Source of the DNA: Bartonella vinsonii subsp. arupensis OK-94-513
GTDB taxonomy: Bacteria > Pseudomonadota > Alphaproteobacteria > Rhizobiales > Rhizobiaceae
Assembly (NCBI RefSeq): GCF_000278235.1
Contig: NZ_JH725037.1
Coordinates: 240,487 to 304,486 of the forward strand
Reading direction: 5' to 3'
Length of the DNA: 64,000 bases
Shown: in pieces, positions 4,365 through 45,160 of the stretch
Layout: each line of letters opens with the position of its first letter
Position numbering within the stretch: the first letter of the stretch is position 1
Position numbers and translations under genes: made by a program
Notes under the pieces: model-generated
Told to the model about the DNA's origin: nothing
What the model saw: only the letters and a program-made list of their open reading frames with translations
Database searches by the model: none

Positions 4365-7300
4365 TTATTTTATTTTCAGAGTTATTGCACCACCTACGCC
4401 CCAATGACCACCAGCACTTGTTGCAGATATATTAGAGCGGATTTTTCCATTTTCAGATGTATAACCAGCACCAAGAGCAAAGGCAGATTGTCCACGCCAT
4501 GCACCGCTACCAAATGAGACACTCAAAGATCCTGGATCGTCGAAGTAACGTAGGTTGGATACGGCTAAACCAACAGCTGCTGCTTGCCTTGCCTCTTTGC
4601 GGACGCTCTTAATGTCATAACTTAAAATATTAAACTTCATATCTGTATATTGGTTAGCTTGGTCAACGGCATTATCAATAGCATCAATAACGATATTATT
4701 CACCCGTTGATCTGTGTAATGCTTTGATTCATCAAGAACAATCTTCATCTGCTGCTCAGTATAATCATGCAGTTGCCCACCATTAATTGCCTCTTTCGAG
4801 CCTTTCTCAATACGACCATCAGCGAGATTATCAATCAGAACAGGTTCACTGGCATCACCACCTTTTAGAGTGATCTTATTGGTTTTCTTTCCGTCTGCAG
4901 TTTTGTCATAGTTAACAGCCCCATCGGAAAGATTATTAACCGTGTTCTCAATATTATCAACTCTGTCTTCAATATTAATAACCGTTTCACCAATATTCGT
5001 AACCGTAGCGGAAATATTATCAACCTTGTTTGTGATATGCTGAATATCTTTTTCAACGCCTGCAACACGTTCATTGGTCTTCCAAAGTTGTCCGCCATTG
5101 ACCGCATCTTTTGAACCTTGTTCGATTTTACCGTCAGCTACATTGATAATTTTACTTGGCTTACCATCATGTTTAGCATCATAAGCTTGCTGCAAATCAT
5201 TCCACTTTAAAGCATCGGAATCTACCTTGTCGATAACATGATCAATACGATCATTTATGCTTACCATATTGCTATTAACACCACCAAGTGCATCGGCAAC
5301 ATTATTGTAGCTTTTCTCAACAGTTGTACCATCAGCATTGAGTTGTGCAACTTTGAAATTAGGAGCCGTCCATTCCCCATCATTATAGCCAGCACCACCA
5401 CCAAAATAGGCTGCAAGCTGGTTACTCATGCGATAGAGTTGATTACCCGTAATGGCATCTGTTGAACCATCAGCAATTCTACCATCTTTGACATTAAGAA
5501 GAGCTACCGGTCCAGTGCTGTTCTTACCCCCTAAGGTTACACGATTATAATCAACAACACCATCTTCACTTTTATCATAGAGAACCGCTGCCGCACTTGC
5601 GAGATTAATATCTTGAGAAATCTTCTCTATGCTTTTATCAAGTTGATCTTTGTTAACAGCTTCATCGCCTTTTTCTGCTTTTTTCACACCAGAAATAGTG
5701 CGTGCTACACCACCAACACCTGCAATATTGATCTCAGTCCCAGCTGTTTTTGCACCTATCGTGATAATCCCTGAAGCTCCTCCCTCTTGTTGCACAAGAT
5801 TGCCCTTTTTCATTTCGGAAATCTTACCATCAAGGTTTGCAATAGAAATATTCACGCCAGTGAAAGCATCCGTTACATTATTATATTTTGTATCTTTAAT
5901 AACGAAGGTTGGTTCTATACCAGCCGCTACATCTGTACTGCCACCAAAATAGTTCGATATATTTTCAGCAATCTTGAAAAGCTGTGAACCATTTACAGCA
6001 TCGGTTGAATCTTCAGAAAGTGTGCCGTTTTTCACGCCAGAAATTGTACGAACATCACCATTCTTATTGACAATACTGATTTCAGTGCCAGCTGTTTCTT
6101 TACCAATCGTGATAAGAGAACTCTCTCCTTCTTGCTTGACAAGGCTATTTTTTGCCGCATTGGTAATATGATTAGAAATCTTCGTGATAGAATTACTCAC
6201 ACCAGTGAAAGCATCAGCAACATTATCATATTCCTCCTCAACAATAGCACCATCAGCATTCAATTCAGAAACCGTGAATGTAGGATCTGTCCATTCTTCA
6301 TTCTCATACTGAGTACCTCCCCCCAAATAAGTAGCAAGCTTATTGTTCACAGAGTAGAGTTGTTTGCCGGTAATAGCATCGGTTGAATCGCTAGAAATCT
6401 CCCCATCCGCAAGAAACTTAATTTTGCTGTTTGTCTTTTCTTCTCCTGGTCCATGAAGAGCAACAAATGCCTGCTCATCATCACTCCACAATAAAGAGTC
6501 TTTAGAGACACCATCAATTTTCTGAGTAAACTCATTAACCACATTGTCTAAATGACTGTTCACATTTTTGACATTTGCATCAAGACCTGTCAAAGCAGAA
6601 CCTACATCTTCAAAGGTTTTCTGCGTTACCTTACCATCAGCAGAAACAGTGGATAAATTATATTGTGGTCCGACAAATTTACCGTCCTGAAATGCAGCAT
6701 TCCCACCAAAAGATTTTGCAATATCTCCGGATATTTTATTAATTTGGCTACCATTGATGGCATCATGCGAATCCTCAGCAATTCTGCCATCTTTGACATT
6801 AAGAAGAGCCACTGGTTCCGTAGTCTTATCACCCCCTAAAGTGATACTATTATAATTAACAGAATCATCGTCGTTTTTATCATAGAGAACTGCAAAAGCA
6901 CTTGCTTGCTGAATATCGAAAACTTCCTTACCAAGATCAGTAACCGTAGCTGATATATTAGTAACCTTATTATCAATATGGGCAATTTCCTTTTCAACAC
7001 CTGCAACACGATCATTCGTCTTCCAAAGCTGCCCACCATTTATAGCATCAGTTGAATCTTCATTAATATCGCCATTTTTCACGTTATGGAGCGCAACTGG
7101 TTCTTTGGTCTCCTCACCCCCTAAAGTGATACTATTATAATTAACAGAATTATCACTCTTTTTATCATAAAGGACAGCAAAACTATTTGCTTCTTTAATG
7201 ACCTTAATCCTGTCTGTAATATCTGCAATTTCACCATCGAGTTGTTGTTTATTAACAGCTTCATCAGCATTAACTGCTGCTTTCACGCCAGAAATTGTAC

Positions 7301-9647
7301 GAGCCTCACCTGATTTATTTGCAATATGAATCTCTGTGCCTTCTATTTCCTTACCGATAGTGATACGATTTGTCTCTGCTTCTTGCTTAACAAGGCTATT
7401 ATTCTTAAAACTATCGGTAATATCTGCTATACTATCCTCAAGTTGTTTTTTATTAACAGCGTCATTATCTTCCTCTGCTGCTTTCACACCGGAAATTCTA
7501 CGATCTTCACTATTCTTATTGGCAATATTGATTAGATCCCCACCTGTTGCCTTACCAATAGTGATAGTGCCTTCATTTTCTTCCTGCTTCACAAGGCTAT
7601 TTTTTGCCGCATTGGTAATCTGATTAGAAATCTTCGTGATAGAATTATTAATACCCTCAAATGCAGATACAACAGTAGTATATTTAGAACCTTGAATGGT
7701 ATAAGTTGGTCCAATACCATTAATCACATCTGCATCATCACCAAAAAAATCCGATACATTTTTAGCAATTTGAAAAAGCTGGTGACCATTTATTGCATCT
7801 GTTGAAGTAGAACTAATTTCCCCAATCTCAACGCCAGAAATAAGGCGCACCTTACCTTCATTATTTGCAATATTGATTTCAATACCATCCTTTTCAGCAC
7901 CAATAGTGATCCGCTTCTGCGCGTCATCCCATTTAACAAGACTATTTTCTGCTACTTGGTTTTCTATTTCTTTCAGCTGTGCAACATTCACTGCATCAGT
8001 ATCTCTATTTCCTTTTTCAAGTCCTGTAATCCTTTTATTGCCAGCATCAATACCATCAGGTGTTACCTCTGGACCTCCTTTCTCAAAATGAAAACCTTGA
8101 TCATTCATAACGCTTTTTCCAGCAGTGACACTTGTCACATGAATATCATCTGCCAGACCAAATGTTACATTGTGATCGTTATCCCTTACAATCTTGATAT
8201 TCTGTTTATTTTCACTGCCGGCTGCTTGTAAATTTACCATGCCATTTGGGCCAATAGCCATAGCATCTCCACTATTGATAGAAAGCTGCCAACTTGTTTT
8301 CGCTGCCTCTTTCACAGCGTTTAGCTGTGCAACATTCACTGCATCGGTATCTGCTGTCCCCGCTGCAACATCTGTAATCGTTTGATTGCCAGCATGAATA
8401 CCCTGAGAAGTTATTGCTGGCCCTCCATTAGTAAATAGAAAGCCATCATCACTCAAAATGCTTTTTCCTGCAGTGACACTCGTCACTGTAATATTCTTGG
8501 CCAGATCAAACTTTACATTATTGCCTTTAACATCTTTTGTAACTGTAAGATTGTCACTTGCAGCCGATAAATCTACGGTATCTTTTATACCAATCGTTGT
8601 GGAATTTTCCCCTCCAACAGACAGATTCCAACCTTGATCTACGTACGATTCTAATGCTTTTACCTGTGCAACATTTGCGGCATCAGTGTCTGCAGTACCA
8701 GCTGCTACCCCTGTAATCTGACGCGTTTGACTATTTTTAGGATTACCAACACTTACCGCAGCTAGCGTACTCTTCCATTTCTCATTCTTTGATGGGCCAT
8801 GCTCTAAAGGATCGTAACCAATAACACCAGCAGACGTATTAGCTACAGATCCGCTTCCAATAGCAACACCACCTTCTACAATCGCTCTTGCATTTGGACC
8901 AATAGCAATGGACTTCTCTTTTTGAGCTTGAGCATCATAACCCACAGCAATTGCATCTGATGCACTTGCAAGTGATTGGGTACCAAATGCCATACCATCA
9001 ATGTCTGTTGCTTTTGCAAACCCACCAATAGCAATCGCACCTCTTCCTGATGCTTCTGACACAACCCCTATGGCAAGACTTGCTTGTCCTCCCGCAAGCG
9101 CAAAAACGCCAAAGGCTTGTGCCGCCCCAAGCTTTGCAGTAGCCCCCGCACCAAATGCTGTTGAATAATGCCCCGATGCGGAAGATCCACACCCCGTCGC
9201 AAAAGAATAAACGCCAAAAGCTTCAGGCATAACATTTGTAAGACCACCCGTTGCTCCTCCCATATACCCCCCGCTATTGGTTGTACCATCACCAGCCCAA
9301 ACAATCTGACCTGTTGCCCAATTAAAAGGACTCTTGCCAGAAACCTCTTTGTTCAGAGAAATTATTTCATATGCTTCCTTTTCAGTAATTTGCTTATTAG
9401 TACCTTGATTCATGCCACCACGGCCAATAACATTAAACACACCACAGTAATCATTATCGCCAGCTAACACAATACTGCCATGGCTTCCCTTTGGGTAAGA
9501 TACGTCGGTTCCATTTGTGCTCTGAACAGATTGTCCTGTTATCGCAAGATTTGCAGCAACGACAGGAGAAACACTCGACAAGAGTGTGGCTATAACAGTT
9601 CCCAATGAAACAGCTTTAATCAAATTTGGTGTTGAATATTTTTTCAT
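4365..9647 (-). CDS. Trimeric autotransporter adhesin (Vomp/BadA-like), 1760 aa
   Basis: A complete YadA-family adhesin. The start at 9647 (MKKYSTPNL) was preferred over an ATG 36 nt upstream because a strong GGGAGGGG ribosome-binding site sits at 9652-9659 and the signal peptide then begins properly (residues 1 to about 33, SSVSPVVAA). An N-terminal segment has GSHGSIVLAGDNDYCG. The head of AIG-type repeats spans about 140-270. It is followed by a neck (RQITGVAAGTADTDA) and a very long stalk of repeating modules: AVNxxQL necks, FGG-containing units, and coiled-coil segments such as ITKISNQITNAAKNSLV. The C-terminal 90 or so residues are the membrane anchor (VRKEARQAAAVGLAVSNLRY, then beta strands). 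The only cysteines I see are C68 and C153. In Bartonella, proteins of this family mediate binding to host cells and matrix and autoaggregation; the role of this copy is inferred. It is a close paralogue of the next gene. Confidence 0.93.
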   Translation of the reverse strand: MKKYSTPNLIKAVSLGTVIATLLSSVSPVVAANLAITGQSVQSTNGTDVSYPKGSHGSIVLAGDNDYCGVFNVIGRGGMNQGTNKQITEKEAYEIISLNKEVSGKSPFNWATGQIVWAGDGTTNSGGYMGGATGGLTNVMPEAFGVYSFATGCGSSASGHYSTAFGAGATAKLGAAQAFGVFALAGGQASLAIGVVSEASGRGAIAIGGFAKATDIDGMAFGTQSLASASDAIAVGYDAQAQKEKSIAIGPNARAIVEGGVAIGSGSVANTSAGVIGYDPLEHGPSKNEKWKSTLAAVSVGNPKNSQTRQITGVAAGTADTDAANVAQVKALESYVDQGWNLSVGGENSTTIGIKDTVDLSAASDNLTVTKDVKGNNVKFDLAKNITVTSVTAGKSILSDDGFLFTNGGPAITSQGIHAGNQTITDVAAGTADTDAVNVAQLNAVKEAAKTSWQLSINSGDAMAIGPNGMVNLQAAGSENKQNIKIVRDNDHNVTFGLADDIHVTSVTAGKSVMNDQGFHFEKGGPEVTPDGIDAGNKRITGLEKGNRDTDAVNVAQLKEIENQVAENSLVKWDDAQKRITIGAEKDGIEINIANNEGKVRLISGVEIGEISSTSTDAINGHQLFQIAKNVSDFFGDDADVINGIGPTYTIQGSKYTTVVSAFEGINNSITKISNQITNAAKNSLVKQEENEGTITIGKATGGDLINIANKNSEDRRISGVKAAEEDNDAVNKKQLEDSIADITDSFKNNSLVKQEAETNRITIGKEIEGTEIHIANKSGEARTISGVKAAVNADEAVNKQQLDGEIADITDRIKVIKEANSFAVLYDKKSDNSVNYNSITLGGEETKEPVALHNVKNGDINEDSTDAINGGQLWKTNDRVAGVEKEIAHIDNKVTNISATVTDLGKEVFDIQQASAFAVLYDKNDDDSVNYNSITLGGDKTTEPVALLNVKDGRIAEDSHDAINGSQINKISGDIAKSFGGNAAFQDGKFVGPQYNLSTVSADGKVTQKTFEDVGSALTGLDANVKNVNSHLDNVVNEFTQKIDGVSKDSLLWSDDEQAFVALHGPGEEKTNSKIKFLADGEISSDSTDAITGKQLYSVNNKLATYLGGGTQYENEEWTDPTFTVSELNADGAIVEEEYDNVADAFTGVSNSITKISNHITNAAKNSLVKQEGESSLITIGKETAGTEISIVNKNGDVRTISGVKNGTLSEDSTDAVNGSQLFKIAENISNYFGGSTDVAAGIEPTFVIKDTKYNNVTDAFTGVNISIANLDGKISEMKKGNLVQQEGGASGIITIGAKTAGTEINIAGVGGVARTISGVKKAEKGDEAVNKDQLDKSIEKISQDINLASAAAVLYDKSEDGVVDYNRVTLGGKNSTGPVALLNVKDGRIADGSTDAITGNQLYRMSNQLAAYFGGGAGYNDGEWTAPNFKVAQLNADGTTVEKSYNNVADALGGVNSNMVSINDRIDHVIDKVDSDALKWNDLQQAYDAKHDGKPSKIINVADGKIEQGSKDAVNGGQLWKTNERVAGVEKDIQHITNKVDNISATVTNIGETVINIEDRVDNIENTVNNLSDGAVNYDKTADGKKTNKITLKGGDASEPVLIDNLADGRIEKGSKEAINGGQLHDYTEQQMKIVLDESKHYTDQRVNNIVIDAIDNAVDQANQYTDMKFNILSYDIKSVRKEARQAAAVGLAVSNLRYFDDPGSLSVSFGSGAWRGQSAFALGAGYTSENGKIRSNISATSAGGHWGVGGAITLKIK
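6122..6167 (-). repeat. 46-bp identical block shared by adhesins 2 and 3 (copy in gene 2)
   Basis: It encodes part of the stalk segment EGESSLITIG...AAKNSLVKQ. The 46 bases are identical to 11862-11907, and similarity continues on both sides. A 28-base core also recurs inside this gene near 7590-7620. Blocks like this are substrates for recombination between the adhesin genes. Confidence 0.75.
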
Positions 9648-10000
9648 AATTCCCCTCCCGATAATAACATATTTAAGACACAAAAAAGACGCCTACTCGT
9701 GTTGTAAGGCCTTCTTATTTTTTGCGTCTCCGTGCTTTTGCACTGTAAATAAAACAAGATATAAGCTGTTATTGCGACAGCACCTTTAAAGGGGAAGTAG
9801 AGGGCAGCTTGTGAAAGTCAAGCTGAGGAACATCAAAAAAACATATCTTATTACGAGAATAACGTTGGATTTTCTCTTAAAAAGAGCGCCTATTTTTTTG
9901 CTTTATCCTCTTTGAAATTGGTATAATTTTTGCGTCTCTTGATTTTAGGAGAACGCTTATTTTTCTCAAGCAAGATTTATTCAAAGTTTTTTTACTAAAA
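9648..10000. other. Spacer between adhesin genes 2 and 3
   Basis: About 350 bases carrying the ribosome-binding site, leader element and presumed promoter of adhesin gene 2. No gene is visible. GTGTCTT- or GCGTCTC-like motifs following T runs recur at about 9675-9690, 9719 and 9927. Confidence 0.5.
9674..9690 (-). repeat. 17-nt leader element shared by adhesin genes 1 and 2 (copy 2)
   Basis: Identical to 2952-2968 and placed about 27 nt upstream of the adhesin 2 start codon. Adhesin 3 has only a shorter echo (TAAAAAAGAC near 15342). Confidence 0.6.
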
Positions 10001-10056: not shown

Positions 10057-13000
10057 TCAATTCAGTGTCATGTTAAGTCCTGCACCAATACCCCAATGCC
10101 CACCTGAACTTGTAACCGATAAATTAGAACGAATATTTCCTTTTTCAGATGTATAACCAGCACCAAAAGCAAAAGCAGATTGACTACGCCATAAACCACT
10201 ACCAAATGCGACACTTAATTTTCCAGGTGTATCGTTGTAGCGTAAGTTAGACACTGCCAACCCAATAGCTGCTGCTCGTCTTGCCTCTTTACGCACGTTT
10301 TCAATGTTGTAATTTAAAGCCTCAAACTTTATATTAGTGTAGTGGTTCGCCTGATTTACGGCATCATCAATTGCATCGACAACGATATTATTCACCCGTT
10401 GATCCGTATAGTGCTTCGATTCATCAAGAATGATTTTCATTTGCTGCTCAGTATAATCACGCAATTGTCCACCATTTACAGCTTCTTTCGAGCCTTTCTC
10501 AATCTTACCATCAGCTACATTATCAATCAGAACAGGTTCACTGGCATCACCACCAGCTAAAGTGATTTTATTGGTTTTCTTACCATTGTTATCTTTGTCA
10601 TAGAGAACAACTCCGTCTGCAAGTTCACCAACCGTATTCTCAATATTATCAACTTTGTTTTCAATATTATAAACGTCTTTACCAAGATCGGTAACCGTAG
10701 TGGAAATATTGTCAACTCTGTTTGTGATATGCTTTATATCTTTTTCAACACCTGCGACACGTTCATTGGTCTGCCAAAGTTGTCCACCATTGACCGCATC
10801 TTTCGAATCTTTTTCAATCTTACCATCAGCTACATTGATAATTTTACTTGGCTGACCGGTATGACTAGCGTCATAGGCTTGTTGATCACTATTCCACTTT
10901 AAAGCATCAGAATCTACTTTGTTGATGACATCCTCAATACGATTGTTTATGTTGATCATACCGTTATTAACACCACCAAGTGCATCAGCAACATTATTGT
11001 AGCTTTTCTTTTCACCAACGCTACCATCAGCATTAAATTGAGAAATCGTGAAATTAGGAGCGTTCCATTTTCCATCCTTATAGCCCGCACCACCGCCGAA
11101 ATAATTAGCCAACTGGGTGCTCATGAGATAGAGTTGATTACCTGTGATAGCATCCGTTGAGTTAGCAGCAATCTCTCCATCCAAAAGGAATTTCAACTTG
11201 CTGTTTGTCTTCTTTCCGTCTTTTTCATGACGTGCAACAAAAGCTTTATCCTCTTCGCTCCAAAGTAAAGCATCTTTAGAAAAATTATTAATTTTCTGAC
11301 TAAAGTCATTGGCTACATTTGTTATGCGCGTATTCACACTATTGAAATTTGTATCAAGCCCTTTCAAAGCTGAGCCAACATCATAGTAGTTAATCTTTCC
11401 TACCTTACCATCTTCAAAAACAATAGATAAATTATATTTGGGTCTGACAAAAGCACCATCTTTAAATTTAGCACCTCCACCAAAGTATTGTGCTATATCT
11501 TGAGATATTTTGTTAATCTGGCTTCCATTGATCGCATCATGAGATTGCTCAGAAATCACACCATCTTTGACATTGCGCAAAGCGACTTGTTCTTTGCTTT
11601 TATTACCACCCAAAGTCACACTGTTATAATTGACAGAATTATCACTATTTTTATCATAGAGAACTGCAAAATCACTTACATTCTTGATATTGTTAATGTT
11701 GTTATTAATATCTGCAATACGATTATCAAGCTGCTTTTTATTAACGGCCTCATCATCTTGCTCTGCTGCTTTTACACTGGAAATTGTACGAGCTTCACCC
11801 GATTTGTTTGCAATACTAATTTTAGTACCACCTGTTGCTTTACCAACGGTGATAAGAGAATTCTCTCCTTCTTGCTTGACAAGGCTATTTTTTGCCGCAT
11901 TGGTAATCTGATTAGAAATCTCTGTGATAGAAGTATTGACAGCACTAAAAGCAGAACCCACATCACTATAGTTATTGTTTTGAATCGTATAGGTTGGTGC
12001 TGTACCGTCAAATATATCTGCACCACCACCAAAATAATTCGATATATTTGTACTTATATCAGCAAAATCATTATCTAGCTCACTAATCTTTTGATTAGTT
12101 TCATAGAGCTGCGCTCCATTCACTGCCTCCGTTGAATCAGCAGTAATCTTTCCACCTGAAACACCAGAAATAATACGAACCCTGTTTTCATTATTCGCAA
12201 TATTGATTAGACTGCCACCTTTTTCCTTACCAATAGTGATACGCTTCTGGTCTTCATCCCATTGAACAAGACTATTTTCTGTTATATTAGAAATTTGATT
12301 GTGGATCTTGGTGAAAGTGGTATTCACACCTTCAAATGCATCTGCAACATTATCATAGGATTTCTCAGAGGACGATCCGTCGTTGTCAATTTGAGAAATT
12401 GTGAAAGTAGGAGCTTGCCATTTGCCTTTCTCATACTTAGCGCCACCACCAAAATACTCAGCAATATCAAGAAATCCAACGGTTATTCTATGATCAACTG
12501 CAAAGACATTTTTATTCACTACATCCAAAGCTGTACCAACATCATGATATTTAATCAGAGCTACTGTACCATCTTCATCAATAGTTGTTAACTTATATTC
12601 TGGATTTGTAAAAACACCGTTCTTGAATTCCGTTTTTCCACCAAAAATTTTTGCAACACCTTTGGATATTTTATTAATTTGGCTACCATTTATCGCATCT
12701 GTTGAATCTTCAGTAATGTCACCATCCAAAAGGTAAGTAATTTTACTATCTCTTAATGCCTCTCCTTCTTGATGTTGCGCAACAAATGCCTGTTCTTTGT
12801 TGCTCCATAACAGAGCATCTTTAGAAAAATCATTAAACACATTACTAAAATCATTAACCACATTACTTAAGTGAGTATTCACACTTTTGACATTTGCATT
12901 AAGTCCTTTCAAAGCGGAACCAACGTCATAAAATTTAGTCTCTGCCACCTGACCATCTTCAACAATAAGAGATAAATTATATGTTGGTCCACGAAAGGTG

Positions 13001-15228
13001 CCATCATTGAACGAGGCTTCACCACCAAAAAATTTTGCCACATCTTGGGATATTTTATTAATCTGGCTACCATTCACTGCTTCAGTTGAAGATTCATCAA
13101 TATCACCGTCCGAAACGCCGGAAATTGTACGAGTATCACCCGATTGGTTTGTAATATTAATTACATTACCACCTTTTTCCTTACCAATGGTGATAAGATT
13201 CCCCTTTTCAACCCATTGAACAAGGTTATTTCCTGCTATTTTATCTTCTATTTTTTTTAGCTGTCCAAAATTAACTGCATCGGTATCATCAGTTCCTTCT
13301 GCTACTTCTTTAATCTTTTTACTGCCAGCCTTAATACCCCCCATACCCATGCTTGGTCCACCAGTAATTACGAAACCATCACTACTCATAGTGCTTTGTC
13401 CCGTAGTGACGCTTGTTAACTTAAGAGCATCACTCAAAGCAAATTTGATCTTGTTATCATCGCCTTTGGTAATCTTTAAGTTGTCTTGTCCAGCTTCATT
13501 GTTATTTTGCACTGAAAAATCTACAGTATTGCCTGCTTTAACATCCGTAGGATTTTCATTATTAACAGAAAGTTTCCAACCTCCTGCTATTTGATCTTTT
13601 ATTTCTTTCAGCTGTCCAAAATTAACTGCATCACCATTCTCAGTTCCTGCCATTACTCCTGTAATCTTTTTATTGCCAGCAGAAATACCATCACTCTTTA
13701 CGCTTGGACCACCTGTAATCTCTAAGCCACTATCACTTAAAGAGCTTTTACCTGTAGTAACGCTCGTCAAATTAAGTTCATCACTTAAAGTAAATTTGAC
13801 GTTATGCTTATTATTATTTTCCCCTTCCCTCTCTACCTTTATCTTTAAGTTGTCTTCTCCCACGCCGTTTTTTGTCACTGAAAAATCTACTGTATTGTCT
13901 CCATTAACAGCTGCAGAATCTCTATCGTTAACAGAAAGATTCCAGCTTCCTCCTGCTCCTTCTCCTGCTATGACATTTCTCAGAGCTTTTAACTGCGCCA
14001 CATTGACAGCATCGGTATCTTCACTTCCCGCTGCAACATTTGTAATCTGTCGCGTTAACTTCTGGTTAGTATTACCGACACTAAAATCACCTCCAGTGCT
14101 TTTCCATGCAAGAGTATCCTTTTTTGTTGTAGCATTTGTTACAGGATCATAACCCAAAACACCACGCTCAACACGAGAAACAGATCCTCCACCCACAGCA
14201 ACACCGTCTGTAACACGTACCTGTGCATTTATACCAACCGCAACTGAATGATCTGTCTCAGCAAAAGTATGGGAACCTATAGCAATTGAATTTTTACCTT
14301 TCGCTATTACTTCTCTGTCTTGCCCGTTTTCTGCAGGTTCCCCACCACCTATTGCAATAGAACCAAGAGCTTGCGCTTCAGCTTTCGATCCTATAGCAAC
14401 CGTATACTCCTTACTTGCCTTGGTTTTGAGCCCTATTGCAACACTATTGTAACCAGATGCAGATGCTATATTACCAATAGCAACACTATTTATACCACTC
14501 CCTTCTGTATTGGAACCAATCGCAATCGCATCGTCCATCGTCGCTTGAGAATCCTCACCTATAGAAATGCTATTTTTACCAGAGGCTTTTGCAAGTCCAC
14601 CCATAGCAACTGCAGACTTCCCTGATGCCTCTGAATCAACACCCATAGCAACACTTGCTATACCACTTGCAAGCGCAGAAACACCAAAGGCTTGCGCTCC
14701 ACCCGCTTTTGCTGTCGCGCCTGCACCAAATACCGTTGAATAATTACCCGTCGCAGCAGATCCACAACCGGTAGCAAAAGAATAAATACCATACGCCTCA
14801 GGCATTGCATTCTGAAAACCACTCGTCAGCGCTCCCATATAACCACCGCTGGGGGTTGTAGTACTATTATTAGCCCAAGTAACCTTCTCAGTGGTCGTAC
14901 CATAAGGATTGCGATTTCCAAATTCTTTATTGTCGACAAATCTATTATATTGCTCCTTTGCCGTTATGCGATTAGTCACCCCATCCTGTTGTTTTCCTCC
15001 ACGTCCAACAACATTATCCACACCACAGTAATCATTATCACCAGCGAAGACAATACTACCATGACTCCCATAAGGATAAGGAACATCTGCACCACTCGAG
15101 TTTCGAATAAGGCCTCCTGTCGTAGAAACACCCGCAGCAAAAACAGGAGACACACTAGACAAAAGTGTCGCAATAACAGTCCCCAACGAAACCGCCTTAA
15201 CCAAATTTGGTGTTGAATATTTTTTCAT
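10057..15228 (-). CDS. Trimeric autotransporter adhesin (Vomp/BadA-like), 1723 aa
   Basis: A complete YadA-family adhesin. The reading frame is open 61 codons further upstream, but the start at 15228 gives MKKYSTPNLVKAVSLG, matching the paralogue, with a GAGGGA ribosome-binding site just upstream. Residues 1 to about 32 are the signal peptide. An N-terminal segment with GSHGSIVFAGDNDYCG follows, then a longer head than its neighbour (about a dozen AIG/AVG repeats, residues about 150-400), a neck (TRQITNVAAGSEDTDAV), a long modular stalk, and an anchor (VRKEARRAAAIGLAVSNLRY to the C-terminus). Cysteines C68 and C155 are the only ones seen. Its C-terminal quarter is near-identical in layout to adhesin 2. 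Family knowledge (Vomp, BadA) predicts host adhesion and phase or antigenic variation; that is inference for this copy. Confidence 0.93.
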   Translation of the reverse strand: MKKYSTPNLVKAVSLGTVIATLLSSVSPVFAAGVSTTGGLIRNSSGADVPYPYGSHGSIVFAGDNDYCGVDNVVGRGGKQQDGVTNRITAKEQYNRFVDNKEFGNRNPYGTTTEKVTWANNSTTTPSGGYMGALTSGFQNAMPEAYGIYSFATGCGSAATGNYSTVFGAGATAKAGGAQAFGVSALASGIASVAMGVDSEASGKSAVAMGGLAKASGKNSISIGEDSQATMDDAIAIGSNTEGSGINSVAIGNIASASGYNSVAIGLKTKASKEYTVAIGSKAEAQALGSIAIGGGEPAENGQDREVIAKGKNSIAIGSHTFAETDHSVAVGINAQVRVTDGVAVGGGSVSRVERGVLGYDPVTNATTKKDTLAWKSTGGDFSVGNTNQKLTRQITNVAAGSEDTDAVNVAQLKALRNVIAGEGAGGSWNLSVNDRDSAAVNGDNTVDFSVTKNGVGEDNLKIKVEREGENNNKHNVKFTLSDELNLTSVTTGKSSLSDSGLEITGGPSVKSDGISAGNKKITGVMAGTENGDAVNFGQLKEIKDQIAGGWKLSVNNENPTDVKAGNTVDFSVQNNNEAGQDNLKITKGDDNKIKFALSDALKLTSVTTGQSTMSSDGFVITGGPSMGMGGIKAGSKKIKEVAEGTDDTDAVNFGQLKKIEDKIAGNNLVQWVEKGNLITIGKEKGGNVINITNQSGDTRTISGVSDGDIDESSTEAVNGSQINKISQDVAKFFGGEASFNDGTFRGPTYNLSLIVEDGQVAETKFYDVGSALKGLNANVKSVNTHLSNVVNDFSNVFNDFSKDALLWSNKEQAFVAQHQEGEALRDSKITYLLDGDITEDSTDAINGSQINKISKGVAKIFGGKTEFKNGVFTNPEYKLTTIDEDGTVALIKYHDVGTALDVVNKNVFAVDHRITVGFLDIAEYFGGGAKYEKGKWQAPTFTISQIDNDGSSSEKSYDNVADAFEGVNTTFTKIHNQISNITENSLVQWDEDQKRITIGKEKGGSLINIANNENRVRIISGVSGGKITADSTEAVNGAQLYETNQKISELDNDFADISTNISNYFGGGADIFDGTAPTYTIQNNNYSDVGSAFSAVNTSITEISNQITNAAKNSLVKQEGENSLITVGKATGGTKISIANKSGEARTISSVKAAEQDDEAVNKKQLDNRIADINNNINNIKNVSDFAVLYDKNSDNSVNYNSVTLGGNKSKEQVALRNVKDGVISEQSHDAINGSQINKISQDIAQYFGGGAKFKDGAFVRPKYNLSIVFEDGKVGKINYYDVGSALKGLDTNFNSVNTRITNVANDFSQKINNFSKDALLWSEEDKAFVARHEKDGKKTNSKLKFLLDGEIAANSTDAITGNQLYLMSTQLANYFGGGAGYKDGKWNAPNFTISQFNADGSVGEKKSYNNVADALGGVNNGMININNRIEDVINKVDSDALKWNSDQQAYDASHTGQPSKIINVADGKIEKDSKDAVNGGQLWQTNERVAGVEKDIKHITNRVDNISTTVTDLGKDVYNIENKVDNIENTVGELADGVVLYDKDNNGKKTNKITLAGGDASEPVLIDNVADGKIEKGSKEAVNGGQLRDYTEQQMKIILDESKHYTDQRVNNIVVDAIDDAVNQANHYTNIKFEALNYNIENVRKEARRAAAIGLAVSNLRYNDTPGKLSVAFGSGLWRSQSAFAFGAGYTSEKGNIRSNLSVTSSGGHWGIGAGLNMTLN
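11862..11907 (-). repeat. 46-bp identical block shared by adhesins 2 and 3 (copy in gene 3)
   Basis: Identical to 6122-6167 in the neighbouring adhesin gene, about 5.7 kb away and in the same orientation. It encodes the stalk segment around AAKNSLVKQEGE. Confidence 0.75.
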
Positions 15229-15815
15229 GATAAATCCCTCAATATAGAGCATACTGAAAGCCAAAACAAAGTTCAGCTTCGCCACAACAGGCAACAAAAA
15301 ACACTTCGCAAAATCACGTTTGCGCACTAGAAAAATTTTAAAAAAGACAAAACCCACCCTCTCAACGCTCAGAATTCTCTCAGCATCGTCCCAAAAATTC
15401 TGAAAAGACATTGGATGTTAAAACACCCCCATCAATAAAGGGATTTAAATAAAAAATAGGTAATTTACTTGCAAACTATGCTATAACCTCCATCACGAAC
15501 AGTATAATTCGCTTCTTATAAAACAGTCTTTCATTTTCAGATAAAGCGCATCAACAAAATGGCAAGAGTAGAAGAAAATAATTTTTCATGGATTTGCACA
15601 AATACACCGCTATAAATTGTAAAATATAAAGATAATCCTGCGATATAGTTCCATGAAACACATGAACACTACATAGAAATTTGTAGTGTTCAATCTTCTT
15701 TAGCAGATAAAATGTGGATAGTGTTTTCAAAAGCTAAAAGACGTGTAGAGGTAGTGCTCTTTTTAAAATCGGATTTTTATAGCATAAAAACAAAAAAAAT
15801 CATGTCAGAGAACTG
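15229..15815. other. Spacer between adhesin 3 and the XRE repressor
   Basis: About 590 bases. The part nearest 15228 carries the ribosome-binding site and presumed promoter of adhesin 3. No gene, RNA or hairpin terminator is convincing here. Confidence 0.45.
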
Positions 15816-39199: not shown

Positions 39200-40225
39200 T
39201 CATTTAAAGCGTACTGTGTCATCCCTCTCACTTTTGAGTGACCGGCTTAATAATGTATTAGCTGCGTCCGCTACGCTTTTATCACAAAATAGGACTTGAT
39301 AAAGCTGCTCTGTAATTGGCATTTCTACCCCAATACGTTGTGCTAATGTACGCACTTCTTTCGTATTTAAATAACCTTCAACAACTTGACCAACCTGTTT
39401 TTCGGCTTTTTCTCTCTCCATTCCTTGGCCAAGCAGTATTCCGAAACGGCGATTGCGCGACTGGTTATCAGTACATGTCAAAATCAGATCACCTAAACCT
39501 GTCATACCCATGAATGTGGAAAGATCTGCACCCATTGCAACGCCTAAACGACTGATTTCAGTTAAGCCTCGTGTGATAAGAGCTATTCGAGCGTTTGCTC
39601 CAAATCCCATGCCATCTGATATTCCTGCACCGATAGCAATGACATTTTTGACTGCTCCACCTAATTGAACACCGATCATATCTGGATTTTTATAAATTCT
39701 AAAATTTTTGCTACAATGGAAAAGTTGCTGTAGCTCTTCACTAAATTCAGCATCAGAAGCTGCTACCGTAATTGCTGTCGGCATGCCAATAGCAAGTTCT
39801 TTAGCAAAAGTTGGTCCAGACAAGACAGCTAAAGGAATTTTATCACCTAAAACCTCACGAGCAACTTCTTGTAAGAGGCGTCCCGTACCATGTTCTAAGC
39901 CTTTTGTTGCCCAAATAACACGTGAATTCTGATCCAAATAAGGCTTAATATTGCACAATACCTCACGAAATACATGGCTTGGGACAACAATCAATATATT
40001 GGAGCTTGCTGTTATTGCAGTTTCAAGAGAAGTTTCAAGCAATAGATTTTCTGGAAACCGAATATCGGGTAAAAATATTTGATTACAGCGATGTTTTTGT
40101 AATTTTCTGATATGTTGAGGATTATATCCCCAAAGTAAAACACGATGCTCGTTACGGGCAAGAGCAACGGCTAATGCAGTGCCAAAAGAGCCAGCACCAA
40201 TAATTGTTATCGAATCGGCTTTCAT
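39200..40225 (-). CDS. gpsA: Glycerol-3-phosphate dehydrogenase [NAD(P)+]
   Basis: It reduces dihydroxyacetone phosphate to sn-glycerol 3-phosphate for phospholipid synthesis. 341 residues. The Rossmann motif [14 protein letters not shown] is at the N-terminus. Further signatures are [23 protein letters not shown], the catalytic lysine in [15 protein letters not shown], and [12 protein letters not shown]. It is monocistronic, convergent with fabI. Confidence 0.96.
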
Positions 40226-40599
40226 TAAAATTTCTGATTATTTTCCAAATTTTCAGTTCTCATCATACGCTATAATATATTCAAAAGAGCATTTTTAATA
40301 TAAATTCACTGAATTTGAAAACACTCTTTTTTCATAACTTTACCTCACACAACATAAAATCTTTTAAAATTTCTCATGTTCTATACTGAATTGTATAAAC
40401 ATCATTTCTGCTACATTCTATAAATAGCTCTTTGTCTCAAATAAAATTAAGATTACGCTAGACTAGCCATGGATTTTTTTGTTTTAGAATAAAAGTATAA
40501 TCCAAATTGTAATGATCCCCTAAACAATTACCCGGCTGGTACCCTATCTTCATATCTACCTTATGTCCCGCAATATTTTCGCAACTAGTGCCTACAAAA
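40226..40599. other. Spacer between gpsA and the cyo terminator
   Basis: About 370 AT-rich bases, containing the gpsA promoter region and nothing else I can support. Confidence 0.4.
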
Positions 40600-40626
40600 A
40601 AAGCCAATGCACTTGGCATTGGCTTT
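40600..40626 (-). terminator. Rho-independent terminator of the cyo operon
   Basis: An 11-bp stem (AAAGCCAATGC against GCATTGGCTTT) with a 5-nt loop. On the minus strand a T run continues. It begins 23 nt past the cyoD stop. Confidence 0.88.
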
Positions 40627-40649
40627 ATAGATAATTTGATTCTTAGTCA

Positions 40650-41435
40650 CTACTTTACAGAATTTTGTGTATCTGGCGCTTGCTCTACAGGCATTTCTGC
40701 ATCCGGTGCTTTTTCTACGGGAGCTTGCGCTGGTAGCTGTCCCATAGGCATTTCCACACCTGGTGCCTGCTCTACAGGCATTTTTGCGTCCGGTGCCTTT
40801 TCTACAGGAGCTTGCGTTGGCAACTGTCCCATAGGCATTTCTGCACCTGGTGCTTGCTCTACAGGAGCCTGCGTTGACTGCCCCACAGGCATTTCCACAC
40901 CTGGTGCCTGCTCTACAGGCATTTTTGCATCCGGTGCCTTTTGTACAGGAGCTTGCGTTGGCAGCTGTCCCATAGGCATTTCTGCACCTGGTGCTTGCTC
41001 TACAGGAGCCTGCGCTGGTAACTGTTCTACTGGTTTTTGTGTCTCCGAGAATTGTTCAGGAGTTGTTACAGAACTCCCTAAAACCTCTGGCTCAATAATA
41101 CGTCCTGAACCACCCATCATATTATAATTCAAATGAGAAATAGCCCACCACGTACCCCCAATAATAACAAAAACGCAAATAGCTGCAAACCATAATGCGC
41201 TTAAATTCCATTTGGCATCTGGACCAGAATTCAGGTGCAAGAAAAAAACAATTTGCACTATAATCTGAATAATCGCCATCCCAATAAGATATGCAACCTT
41301 TGTGCTAATTGCCCAACTGTCCATCATTCCATACATCACAGGAATAAAAGACCCCATCGTGAAAAATACAGCCAGTATAAAACCAATTAAATAAGAACCC
41401 GTACTGGGACCATGTGCTTCGTTATGCCTGCTCAT
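40650..41435 (-). CDS. cyoD: Cytochrome bo3 quinol oxidase subunit IV with long Pro-rich repeat tail
   Basis: Residues 1 to about 108 are a normal CyoD: three membrane helices (about 14-37, 44-66 and 79-98) with the conserved IVFFLHLNS segment. The family is usually 110-130 residues; this protein has 261. From residue 138 to the end it carries tandem repeats of two related modules, QLPTQAPVEKAPDAK... (29 aa) and QLPAQAPVEQAPGAEMPMG (18-19 aa), rich in Pro, Ala, Gln, Val and Glu. The start at 41435 overlaps the cyoC stop by one base (TAATG) and gives MSRHNEAHG; a longer frame 45 nt upstream is rejected. The core helps assemble subunit I. The tail's function is unknown and it would project from the membrane. 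Confidence 0.9.
   Translation of the reverse strand: MSRHNEAHGPSTGSYLIGFILAVFFTMGSFIPVMYGMMDSWAISTKVAYLIGMAIIQIIVQIVFFLHLNSGPDAKWNLSALWFAAICVFVIIGGTWWAISHLNYNMMGGSGRIIEPEVLGSSVTTPEQFSETQKPVEQLPAQAPVEQAPGAEMPMGQLPTQAPVQKAPDAKMPVEQAPGVEMPVGQSTQAPVEQAPGAEMPMGQLPTQAPVEKAPDAKMPVEQAPGVEMPMGQLPAQAPVEKAPDAEMPVEQAPDTQNSVK
40653..41024 (-). repeat. In-frame tandem repeats encoding the CyoD tail
   Basis: Five consecutive coding modules: residues 138-156, 157-185, 186-203, 204-232 and 233-261. Modules 1+2 and 3+4 form a 47-48-residue super-repeat (about 141-144 bp) present twice, with a divergent fifth unit at the end. All units keep the reading frame. Confidence 0.85.
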
Positions 41436-42100
41436 TATAATGCTCCTAATAGATAAACCATCGTGAAAACACCAACCCATACGATATCAAGCAAATGCCA
41501 GAAAATTGAAAGGCATGTCAAACGTGTTTTATTATCCTGATCCAAACCACTACGACGAAGATGAAAAAACATTACTATCATCCAGAGAAGACCAACACTT
41601 ACGTGAAGACCATGAGTGCCCACTAAAGCAAAAAATGCTGACCAATAAGCAGATAGGACTTCTCGTCCAAAAAGCTGTAAACCTGTTGCAGGATCAATAC
41701 CAGCATAAGCATTAGGATCGTAATAAAACACCTCGCCCAGAAGCTCATGAAACTCATAAACTTCCATTCCGATAAAACAACATCCAAGGACAAAGGTAAC
41801 AGCCATCCATAACCGCACACCACTAAGATTACTTTTATGTGCTTGTACCATTGCAAACCCATAAGTAATTGATGATAGCAATAAGATAGCAGTCTCAACT
41901 AAAACAAATTTTAAATCAATAAATTCATTGCCTGCTTTTCCTCCACCATAAGAAGCAGAAAAAACAGCAAAACTTGAAAAAAGTGTTGAGAACAGAATCA
42001 AATCCGAAAGAATGTAGACCCAAAAACCAAATGTCATTATCGAGCTACTATCGTGATGATGTTCATCAACGTGAGCATTATTCATTGTTATCGCATTCAT
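41435..42100 (-). CDS. cyoC: Cytochrome bo3 quinol oxidase subunit III
   Basis: Subunit III of the haem-copper quinol oxidase, a membrane protein of 221 residues with about five helices: MTFGFWVYILSDLILFSTLF, the helix near AILLLSSITYGFAMVQ, the one at VTFVLGCCFIGMEVYE, the one containing FALVGTHGLHVSVGLLW, and the last near HLLDIVWVGVFTMVYL. The His-rich N-terminus (DEHHHDS) is usual. It overlaps cyoB by 4 nt (ATGA) and cyoD by one base, so all are translationally coupled. Confidence 0.95.
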   Translation of the reverse strand: MNAITMNNAHVDEHHHDSSSIMTFGFWVYILSDLILFSTLFSSFAVFSASYGGGKAGNEFIDLKFVLVETAILLLSSITYGFAMVQAHKSNLSGVRLWMAVTFVLGCCFIGMEVYEFHELLGEVFYYDPNAYAGIDPATGLQLFGREVLSAYWSAFFALVGTHGLHVSVGLLWMIVMFFHLRRSGLDQDNKTRLTCLSIFWHLLDIVWVGVFTMVYLLGAL

Positions 42101-44115
42101 ACTGTTGCTCCTTGTTTTTTAAGAACAGCTGTAAAAACATCCTCAGTTTTTTGCACTTCTTCAGCTGGAATATAGTAACCATGGTGGTCACCTGTTAATG
42201 AATGACGCACAATCGTTGCAATAAAACCAATCAACCCAATCGCAACGAGCCACCAAATATGCCAAACAAGCGCAAAACCAATAACTAACGAAAAGAATCC
42301 TGCAATAATCCCTGCCGATGTATTTGAAGGCATATGAATTTTTGAAAAACCACTCGTTGGACGCTGATAACCATTCTTCTTCATATGCCAATAAGCATCG
42401 TCATGCTGCACTTCTGGAATAATTGCAAAATTATAAGCAGGAGGAGGAGAAGAAACAGACCATTCAAGCGTCCGTCCATCACCCCAAGAATCATTTAATG
42501 TTACTGGCAAGCGCCCTTTATGTTTGATACCATACCTAATTGCTAAAACAACTTGTAGAACAAAACAAAGGATACCAAGCAAAATAATAAAAGCTCCCAA
42601 TGCAGCAATGATAAACATTGGCTGCCAACTAGGTTCCATGTAATGCTGGAGACGACGCGTCGCACCCATTAAACCAAGCGCATAAACTGGGAAAAAAGCG
42701 AGGTAGAAACCAACAAACCAGCACCAGAAAGATGCAATACCTAGAAATCGATTGGGTTTATAACCAAAAACTTTTGGAAACCAAAAAGCAAGCCCAGCGA
42801 GATAAGCAAAAACAACACCACCAATAATTGTATGATGGAAATGCGCTACCAAAAACAACGAATTGTGAAACTGCCAATCAGCAGGCACAATAGATAATAA
42901 AACACCGGTTAACCCACCACCAACAAATGTAAAGATCATTCCCATACACCAAAGCATTGGAGGCTCGAAACGAATGCGCCCTTTATACATAGTCAGTAGC
43001 CAATTAAAGACTTTCACACCTGTGGGAACCGCAATGATCATTGTTGCAATACCAAAGAAAGTATTTACAGCTTCACCTCCACCCATTGTAAAGAAATGGT
43101 GTCCCCAAACAACAAGCGAAAGAATTAAAATAACCAACATTGCCCATACCATTGAAGTATAACCAAAAAGGCGTTTTGAAGAAAAAGTCGACACAACCTC
43201 AGAAACAATCCCAAAAGCAGGAACAACCAAAACATAGACTTCAGGATGACCAAAAATCCAGACATAGTTAATCCATACCATCGGATTTCCACCCCCAACA
43301 TTAGTAAAGAAATTCATGCCCAAATAACGATCACATGCCAAGAGGGCGAATGCTACAGTTAAAACAGGATAAATCACCAAAATAAGGACATTACTAACGA
43401 AAGCGCTCCAACAAAAAACTGGCATTTTCATCATTGTCATTCCAGGAGCACGCATTTTAATAATGGTCGCAACGAAATTGATTGCTCCCATTGTCGTCGC
43501 GATACCAGAAAGCTGAAGCGACCATAAATAATAATCTACCCCTGTATCTGGACTCCCTTGCAACTCAGAAAAAGGAGGATACATCAACCAACCACCACGA
43601 CCAAAATTACCAACACCTAGCGATATGTTAATCAGTATTGCCCCTGCAGCTGTAATCCAAAACCCTAAATTATTTGCAAAAGGGAAGGCAACATCACGAG
43701 CACCAATTTGTAGTGGTATGAGGTAATTAAAAAGACCAAATAAGATCGGTGTGGCCATGAAGAAAATCATAATGGTGCCATGCGCCGAAAAAATCTGATC
43801 AAAATGCTCAGGCGGCAAATACCCTGCCGTTTCACTGCCAAGCGCCATAGCCTGATGTGTGCGCATCATAATTGCATCAGCAAAACCACGAACAAGCATG
43901 ATAATACCGAGAACAATGTACATAATGCCGATACGTTTATGATCAACCGTTGTAATCCAATTTCGCCATAAAACTCCCCACCATCCAAGTACTGTTAAAG
44001 CAATAACAGCAATTAAACCTCCCAAAACAATCGCAATACATGTGTATAAAACGATTGGCTCATGTGCAAGTGCATGAAAAGCACCAGCCGTAGGATCTGT
44101 AAGTCTTCCAAACAT
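42097..44115 (-). CDS. cyoB: Cytochrome bo3 quinol oxidase subunit I
   Basis: The catalytic subunit of the proton-pumping ubiquinol oxidase, holding low-spin haem, high-spin haem and Cu(B). 672 residues with about 15 helices. Visible ligand motifs are HGTIMIFFM (low-spin haem histidine), WIFGHPEVYVLVVPAFG (Cu(B) His and cross-linked Tyr), VWGHHFFTMGG (two Cu(B) histidines) and VAHFHHTIIGG (haem ligands). The CyoB-type R-D-V-A segment (QIGARDVAFPFAN) is present. Central gene of cyoABCD. Confidence 0.97.
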   Translation of the reverse strand: MFGRLTDPTAGAFHALAHEPIVLYTCIAIVLGGLIAVIALTVLGWWGVLWRNWITTVDHKRIGIMYIVLGIIMLVRGFADAIMMRTHQAMALGSETAGYLPPEHFDQIFSAHGTIMIFFMATPILFGLFNYLIPLQIGARDVAFPFANNLGFWITAAGAILINISLGVGNFGRGGWLMYPPFSELQGSPDTGVDYYLWSLQLSGIATTMGAINFVATIIKMRAPGMTMMKMPVFCWSAFVSNVLILVIYPVLTVAFALLACDRYLGMNFFTNVGGGNPMVWINYVWIFGHPEVYVLVVPAFGIVSEVVSTFSSKRLFGYTSMVWAMLVILILSLVVWGHHFFTMGGGEAVNTFFGIATMIIAVPTGVKVFNWLLTMYKGRIRFEPPMLWCMGMIFTFVGGGLTGVLLSIVPADWQFHNSLFLVAHFHHTIIGGVVFAYLAGLAFWFPKVFGYKPNRFLGIASFWCWFVGFYLAFFPVYALGLMGATRRLQHYMEPSWQPMFIIAALGAFIILLGILCFVLQVVLAIRYGIKHKGRLPVTLNDSWGDGRTLEWSVSSPPPAYNFAIIPEVQHDDAYWHMKKNGYQRPTSGFSKIHMPSNTSAGIIAGFFSLVIGFALVWHIWWLVAIGLIGFIATIVRHSLTGDHHGYYIPAEEVQKTEDVFTAVLKKQGATV

Positions 44116-44188: not shown

Positions 44189-45160
44189 CTAAATAACATC
44201 AGGATCAAAAACAGAACAAAGGGCACCCCAAAGCGACTGAGCCGCAGCACGCTTCATTAAGTCTTCATTACATACGGTATTTTCATCAACACATCGATTG
44301 ACAATCCGGTAATAAAGCCGACTCTCAACGGGAGAAAAATAACGTACTTCAGCATCCTTTTCCTTAGCAGCAACATCACCCATACGCGGCGCAATAGAAA
44401 GCTGACGATAAGATGCGCGATCAAGAACTTGGCCACCAGAACGAGCTTTAGCAACCCAATTCTCAAAATCTTGCGGAGATACAGAATGCCATTTAAAGCG
44501 CATATTTGCAAAACCATCACCACTGTAATTTGCTGAGGTTCCTTTAAACACCCCTTGCTCATCCGCGATCAAATGCAATTTGGAATTCATCTGCGGCATA
44601 GCATAAAGAACTGTACCCAATTTGGGTACCCAAAAAGCATTTACAGAACTTTCTGACGTCAATTGCAATAAAACTTGACGCCCTTTAGGTGCATAAATCT
44701 CATTGATCGATGCAATATTATATTCAGGGTAAATAAAAAGCCATTTCCAATCAAGAGCAACAACGTCTACTTGCAACGGTTTCCCTTCACCAACGACTTC
44801 CACTGGAAGCGGATTTTCTGGTTCAAGCTTATAGGTGTAATAGGCTGTCAACGCACCTAAAACCGTTACAATAATAATTGGAACACCCCACATAAATGCT
44901 TCAATTTTATTTGAATGCCCCCAATCAGGTAAATATTCTTCTGCAGTATTCGACGCCCGATATTTAATGGCCAAAAACACAACACTCACCATCACTGGGA
45001 TTACAACGCAAAGCATAACAGCAACACAAATAACGATCAAAATAAGCTGTTGCCGTGCAACATACCCTGCTGGGTGAATAACATCAAATTTACAACTAGA
45101 TAAAAGAAACGCCATCCCTAAAATTACGAGCATCTTTATTTGTTTAACAAAGTTTCTCAT
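44189..45160 (-). CDS. cyoA: Cytochrome bo3 quinol oxidase subunit II (lipoprotein)
   Basis: Subunit II, 323 residues. The signal sequence ends in the lipobox LLSSC, so it is a lipoprotein with Cys24 acylated. Two membrane helices follow (about 38-63 and 84-105), then the periplasmic cupredoxin domain (LDWKWLFIYPEYNIASIN, FWVPKLGTVLYAMPQM). The Cu(A) ligands of cytochrome c oxidases are absent, as expected for a quinol oxidase. A C-terminal region (about 230-323) corresponds to the CyoA-specific COX-aromatic-rich extension. It is the first gene of the operon; the promoter lies in 45161-45287. Confidence 0.95.
   Translation of the reverse strand: MRNFVKQIKMLVILGMAFLLSSCKFDVIHPAGYVARQQLILIVICVAVMLCVVIPVMVSVVFLAIKYRASNTAEEYLPDWGHSNKIEAFMWGVPIIIVTVLGALTAYYTYKLEPENPLPVEVVGEGKPLQVDVVALDWKWLFIYPEYNIASINEIYAPKGRQVLLQLTSESSVNAFWVPKLGTVLYAMPQMNSKLHLIADEQGVFKGTSANYSGDGFANMRFKWHSVSPQDFENWVAKARSGGQVLDRASYRQLSIAPRMGDVAAKEKDAEVRYFSPVESRLYYRIVNRCVDENTVCNEDLMKRAAAQSLWGALCSVFDPDVI

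Follow-up and report, generated by a model that had tools for sequence, protein, structure and literature searches.

The window, a 64,000-nucleotide stretch of the genome of Bartonella vinsonii subsp. arupensis OK-94-513, carries four consecutive quinol oxidase genes on the minus strand, which together form a cyoABCD operon: cyoA (subunit II, 323 aa, 44189..45160; TIGR01433, 284.2 bits, exceeding the cut-off of 266.2), cyoB (subunit I, 672 aa, 42097..44115; TIGR02843, 1077.9 bits, exceeding 1020.35), cyoC (subunit III, 221 aa, 41435..42100; TIGR02842, 221.0 bits, just under the cut-off of 223.75) and cyoD (subunit IV, 261 aa, 40650..41435; TIGR02847). The cyo genes of E. coli have the same order. 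The start codon of cyoD, an ATG at 41435, overlaps the end of cyoC, and the frame is open throughout its 261 codons. Directly 3' of the gene lies a terminator-like hairpin with an 11-bp stem and a T run (40600..40626, minus strand), found in a consensus scan that gave 3 sites in the region vs 0.7 in shuffles. With this hairpin and then gpsA (39200-40225, minus strand) beyond it, cyoD is taken to close the operon, its 3' end being free to change. The locus occurs once in the assembly from which the window comes; as the sequence is one and the same, this gives no independent check. A search of that genome at E up to 1 with residues 143-261 returned cyoD itself as the single match. Elsewhere in the window, two adjacent and very large open reading frames on the minus strand (4365-9683 and 10057-15411; 1772 and 1784 aa) contain 21-bp repeats; judged by eye, their products resemble BadA/Vomp-type trimeric autotransporter adhesins.

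The N-terminal part of the protein (residues 1-107; 41115..41435, minus strand) is an ordinary CyoD core with three membrane helices, as the initial annotation had proposed. It matches PF03626 and, over residues 11-107, the TIGR02847 profile (113.8 bits vs a cut-off of 81.45), and residues 4-107 align to residues 7-107 of the 109 residues of E. coli CyoD (PDB 6wti_D, E 7.8e-15). Hydropathy windows centred on residues 22-29, 50-62 and 83-93 identify three transmembrane helices, and an AlphaFold model built from 20 aligned sequences places the main helices at 12-34, 43-68 and 74-107. Fold comparison was less discriminating. None of the 39 PDB matches listed by Foldseek for the whole model reached E <=0.001, and although VIA-align superposed the model on the four E. 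coli CyoD chains with an rmsd of 2.6-2.7 over 54-57 residues (Z 6.2, 6.2, 5.5 and 5.4 to 8f68_D, 8f6c_D, 6wti_D and 7n9z_I), unrelated helical proteins scored level. Because the fold matches are weak, the identity of the protein as CyoD rests on the sequence match. With its three-helix core ending in LNYNMM and its place in a cyoABCD operon, it resembles the CyoD of E. coli cytochrome bo3. In E. coli, the N-terminus of CyoD is in and the C-terminus out. Three helices and this topology together suggest that whatever follows the core would lie in the periplasm, and they lend no support to the cytoplasmic location that had been considered as an alternative.

The E. coli chain has 109 residues in all, whereas the Bartonella protein adds 154 after LNYNMM: first a linker of 35 residues, then 119 made up of repeats. 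The initial description of a CyoD doubled in size by a tail outside the known oxidase structure is therefore fair, and none of the four solved CyoD sequences that matched has such a tail. The linker (residues 108-142; 41010..41114, minus strand), delimited by alignment, starts with GGSGR and is variable thereafter. The repeats, on the same strand, run as A1 (19 aa, 40953..41009), B1 (28 aa, 40869..40952), A2 (19 aa, 40812..40868, identical in peptide sequence to A1), B2 (29 aa, 40725..40811) and a terminal unit C (24 aa, 40653..40724) that ends in NSVK and is followed by the stop codon (40650-40652). The 124-residue stretch first singled out corresponds to residues 138-261, and its super-repeat of 47-48 residues with a fifth unit was recovered as A+B copies of 47 and then 48 aa followed by C.

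At the DNA level, Tandem Repeats Finder (TRF) reported an array of 141-nt period (40689-41024, score 560); the best row outside it in the 64 kb scored only 82. A repeat-family search gave a single family of three 140-nt copies (75%, 100% and 96%), and the two A+B copies are identical at 133 of 141 aligned bases, plus one 3-base indel. A 179-aa open reading frame on the opposite strand (40588-41127, plus) spans the repeats. Of the 24 long tails of the genus, 11 leave one antisense frame open and 1 leaves another open; the antisense ORF is probably a by-product of in-frame repetition and is not taken as a gene. In the AlphaFold model, pLDDT is mostly below 50 from residue 111 on and there is no secondary structure beyond the helices; this low confidence, together with composition, suggests that the tail may be intrinsically disordered. 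A Pfam scan gave nothing over the curated cut-off beyond the core. A sub-threshold match to Extensin_1 (residues 134-255, 32.4 bits vs a cut-off of 105) reflects composition, and no TonB-family domain was present among the 5 families returned at E up to 1.

A CyoD match is present in 70 of 71 genomes of the genus Bartonella (all except G057). With a partial match at a contig edge (G062) left out and one copy apiece counted for G051 and G052, each of which has a second, 69 loci could be compared; 62 of them have complete tails, 6 having N gaps and 1 running off its contig. Tail length in these 62 ranges from 16 to 197 aa with 40 distinct values, and 24 tails have at least 100 residues. TRF detected an array in 31 of the 62 complete genes, 25 with scores of at least 200 and 6 weak ones (53-84, of which 4 come from the bee-associated clade); assemblies can miscount repeats, and 6 of 69 tails contain N gaps. 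The unit is 20 codons in most long arrays, 18 or 19 in the vinsonii group and 15 in G021 and G026, and B. clarridgeiae has a different unit of 10 codons. These unequal unit lengths and types suggest that the array may have been born more than once.

In the clade of B. tribocorum, B. grahamii and B. elizabethae (19 rows), lengths are quantised: 14 of 15 complete tails measure 55+20n residues, the exception being 197. Tail length differs in 16 of the 24 pairs whose core DNA is at least 97% identical. The two cyoD copies of G051, 99.2-99.6% identical over long matches, differ in length by 60 codons, or three units; this assembly, with a contamination value of 7, perhaps holds two strains. The length variation that had been predicted from the DNA similarity of the repeats was thus found both across species and between near-identical copies. 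In G052 (L030/L039, L038), two near-identical cyoD copies have a one-base gap between them and one has a different tail ending; copy L030 carries a frameshift within the tail, and contamination of this assembly is given as 10.

Several lineages have short tails. Only 16, 17 and 21 residues follow the core in G006, G001 and G002; these three together with G005 and G041 fall in the range 16-28. B. sp. AR15-3 has 28 and B. tamiae 33. The cores of L139 (G006) and L135/L064 (B. bacilliformis Ver097) are 98% identical in DNA, with tails of 16 vs 51 residues, a change of recent date, whether by loss or by gain. In the bee-associated clade (11 rows), tails stay within 31-44 aa, as against up to 197 in other Bartonella; we take the hosts of this clade from the species names, those of its MAGs excepted. 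On a cyoC-cyoD tree in which the 7 incomplete tails were kept and labelled long, the tail class (at least 60 aa vs less) takes 9 changes. The tail is genuine and labile, and, the bee clade aside (with hosts as presumed above), it occurs widely across Bartonella. The tails of 16, 17 and 21 residues indicate further that the oxidase in general can do without it, the tail being unneeded in several species.

Within a genome, the units of an array undergo concerted evolution. When units were cut with a custom motif, which yields at least two of them for 24 genomes but does not recognise those of B. clarridgeiae, their mean identity was 0.911 within genomes vs 0.727 between genomes. The array in the window is a derived super-repeat of 47-48 codons, whereas B. 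vinsonii subsp. vinsonii, closely related, has simple units of 18 codons. Reading frame is held, the frameshifted copy of G052 apart: the TRF period is divisible by 3 in all 31 arrays, which extends to the genus the in-frame character first noted in the window, and in each of the 24 tails of at least 100 aa the +1 and +2 frames both hold stops. Composition is held as well. All 36 complete tails of at least 60 aa are net negative in charge with less than 2% C/F/W/Y, a combination that 8 of 5000 segments of 100 aa drawn at random from window proteins show. Over the full set of 62 complete tails, the charge is net negative in 58 and positive in 1 (G001), and 45 tails have no C/F/W/Y at all. Crude Nei-Gojobori estimates over 491 non-independent pairs put dN/dS at 0.096 in the core and at 0.513 over the first 38 codons of the tail, and the same crude method gives 0.387 among units within arrays. 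By these ratios the tail is weakly constrained, its linker standing at about 0.5 vs 0.1 for the core, and as no ratio exceeds 1 they count against diversifying selection on single residues.

Outside the genus, few of the loci compared have long extensions. The family was sampled at 50 non-Bartonella loci, selected in part by small genome size or by length of the open frame and hence with biased frequencies. In this sample 47 proteins stop 9-47 residues past the motif, and the long tails are those of L171 (about 120-126 residues), L173 (about 89-96) and L162 (62). Among other members of the class, 27 of 28 loci matched the core query and none has a tail beyond about 25 residues as printed. L171 and L173, from other genera of the family, resemble the CyoD of the window in having a C-terminal extension of about 90-125 aa after the core; however, their tails are rich in Gly/Met/His/Asp, and perhaps metal-related, unlike the Pro/Glu/Gln-rich repeat tails of Bartonella. 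In the L171 tail TRF finds only short weak repeats, one of 15 nt scoring 54 and one of 12 nt scoring 40, and in the L173 and L162 tails none.

One genome of the set, G022, which is probably B. henselae Houston-1 by our own identification, sits beside B. koehlerae in the cyoC-cyoD tree (SH-aLRT 88) and encodes a CyoD with a 121-residue tail and a 60-nt array of 3.8 copies. A comparison with FabI chains in the PDB did not strengthen the identification: the best match, 5koi, clearly differs in sequence, as it does from the FabI of the window. Independent work gives this homologue an immunological interest. On an array of 1433 ORF products derived from strain Houston-1, B. henselae CyoD (BH01250) was the sixth most reactive antigen in infected cats, with a signal of 37k in type I cats (n=10) vs 18k in type II cats (n=14) (PMC2897887). 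In that paper the word 'repeat' is absent from the main text, and the passages drawn on here map no epitope and do not separate core and tail. Since no other large part of the protein is soluble, the tail is a likely antibody target, and it may carry much of the seroreactivity of B. henselae CyoD. The immunological exposure suggested for the tail in the initial annotation is consistent with the seroreactivity of the homologue (PMC2897887) in so far as antibodies are raised, but the inner-membrane core argues against exposure on intact cells. Since a tail on an inner-membrane protein should be out of reach there, immune evasion is not claimed.

Parallels exist among repeat antigens and repeat loci. 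The tandem repeat proteins (TRPs) of Ehrlichia, an example of such antigens in blood-borne bacteria, likewise combine in-frame repeats, variable repeat number and seroreactivity (for CyoD, that of the homologous protein). However, PMC7712067 describes Ehrlichia TRP36 as a cell-surface protein and assigns TRP19 either to the morula membrane or to the matrix, whereas the CyoD repeats belong to an inner-membrane respiratory subunit. The intragenic VNTRs BHV-B to -E of B. henselae (PMC3428342) resemble cyoD in that repeat number varies inside Bartonella genes; the genes behind the Bartonella MLVA VNTRs are not named in the cited passages of PMC3428342, PMC2687025 and PMC3706593, and an account of Bartonella contingency loci (PMC11466379) makes no mention of cyo, quinol oxidase, tandem repeats or minisatellites. 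The literature searched, a part of the whole, yielded no published account of the Bartonella CyoD tail and no topology, expression or peptide data on any Bartonella CyoD.

Taken as a whole, these observations would be explained by an ordinary cyoD whose 3' end turned into an in-frame coding minisatellite. Its product would be a long, disordered, acidic tail rich in Pro/Glu/Gln/Val, hung off the third membrane helix into the periplasm. Whole units would be gained and lost through slippage or recombination, and the homogenisation of copies would leave each lineage with its own units and lengths. Selection would hold the frame and keep the tail soluble, acidic and poor in aromatic residues, and would tolerate a wide range of lengths. 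The antibodies that account for the published seroreactivity of Bartonella CyoD would then most likely bind the tail, the epitopes being placed there by conjecture, and recognition would probably stem from its repetitive and soluble nature after bacterial lysis rather than on living cells. We put the probability of such a tolerated, composition-constrained, periplasmic and disordered tail with incidental immunodominance at roughly 60%.

Its main rival, a tentative possibility, is that the array is a purely neutral passenger, a minisatellite ending the last gene of the operon and adding a harmless soluble tail with neither function nor immune role, whose composition would be no more than that site permits. 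The position of the tail end next to a terminator-like hairpin would fit this, as would tails of just 16-28 residues in G006, G001, G002, G005 and G041 and the relaxed dN/dS (about 0.51 for the linker, 0.39 between repeat units), although these ratios remain below 1. Against pure neutrality, units of 10, 15, 18, 19 and 20 codons share the same make-up (36/36 tails vs 8/5000 background segments); a filter against harmful tails could also yield such a common composition.

More ambitious readings fare less well. The tail might be a length-tunable periplasmic arm whose units were shaped by life in mammalian blood, making the oxidase subunit a variable antigen or an envelope tether, which we regard as doubtful. 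Another such reading makes the locus one of antigenic variation, with unit number and sequence shifting under antibody pressure during long bacteraemia. The contrast between the bee clade (11 rows at 31-44 aa, hosts presumed) and the tails of up to 197 aa elsewhere in the genus could be read in this way, but that clade is one branch of the tree and hence a single contrast, and tails are short elsewhere too (16 in G006, 28 in B. sp. AR15-3, 33 in B. tamiae). The rank of the homologue as sixth most reactive antigen in infected cats and its type-specific reactivity (PMC2897887) also point in this direction; nevertheless, intact cells should shield an inner-membrane protein from antibody and no dN/dS ratio exceeds 1, so that antigenic variation is unlikely. 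A periplasmic spacer or tether, like the Pro-rich part of TonB and extending to a partner complex, to the cell wall or as far as the outer membrane, would suit a Pro/Glu-rich make-up for which the model predicts no structure, and the composition-driven sub-threshold match to Extensin_1 over residues 134-255. However, Pfam gives nothing above the curated cut-off beyond the core, a length range of 16 to 197 would be odd for a measured spacer, and the tail is missing in E. coli CyoD; such a role is rather improbable. Lastly, although repeats are prone to misassembly and the tails of 6 of 69 relatives contain N gaps, a sequencing or assembly artefact or a frameshift, named at the outset as what would undo the finding, is hardly credible given consistent in-frame tails of the same kind across the genus, including the single-contig genomes G064, G022 and G010, and TRF periods divisible by 3 in 31 of 31 arrays.

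A tolerated but compositionally constrained repeat tail offers a testable reason why a respiratory subunit of the inner membrane should rank sixth among the antigens of infected cats, for this tail is absent in the solved subunit of E. coli type. If the tail holds the epitopes, it would be a candidate marker for species- or type-specific serodiagnosis, and cyoD a candidate locus for strain typing. Beyond these uses, the Bartonella cyoD array shows clearly how repeats turn over and evolve in concert within the coding sequence of a respiratory enzyme.
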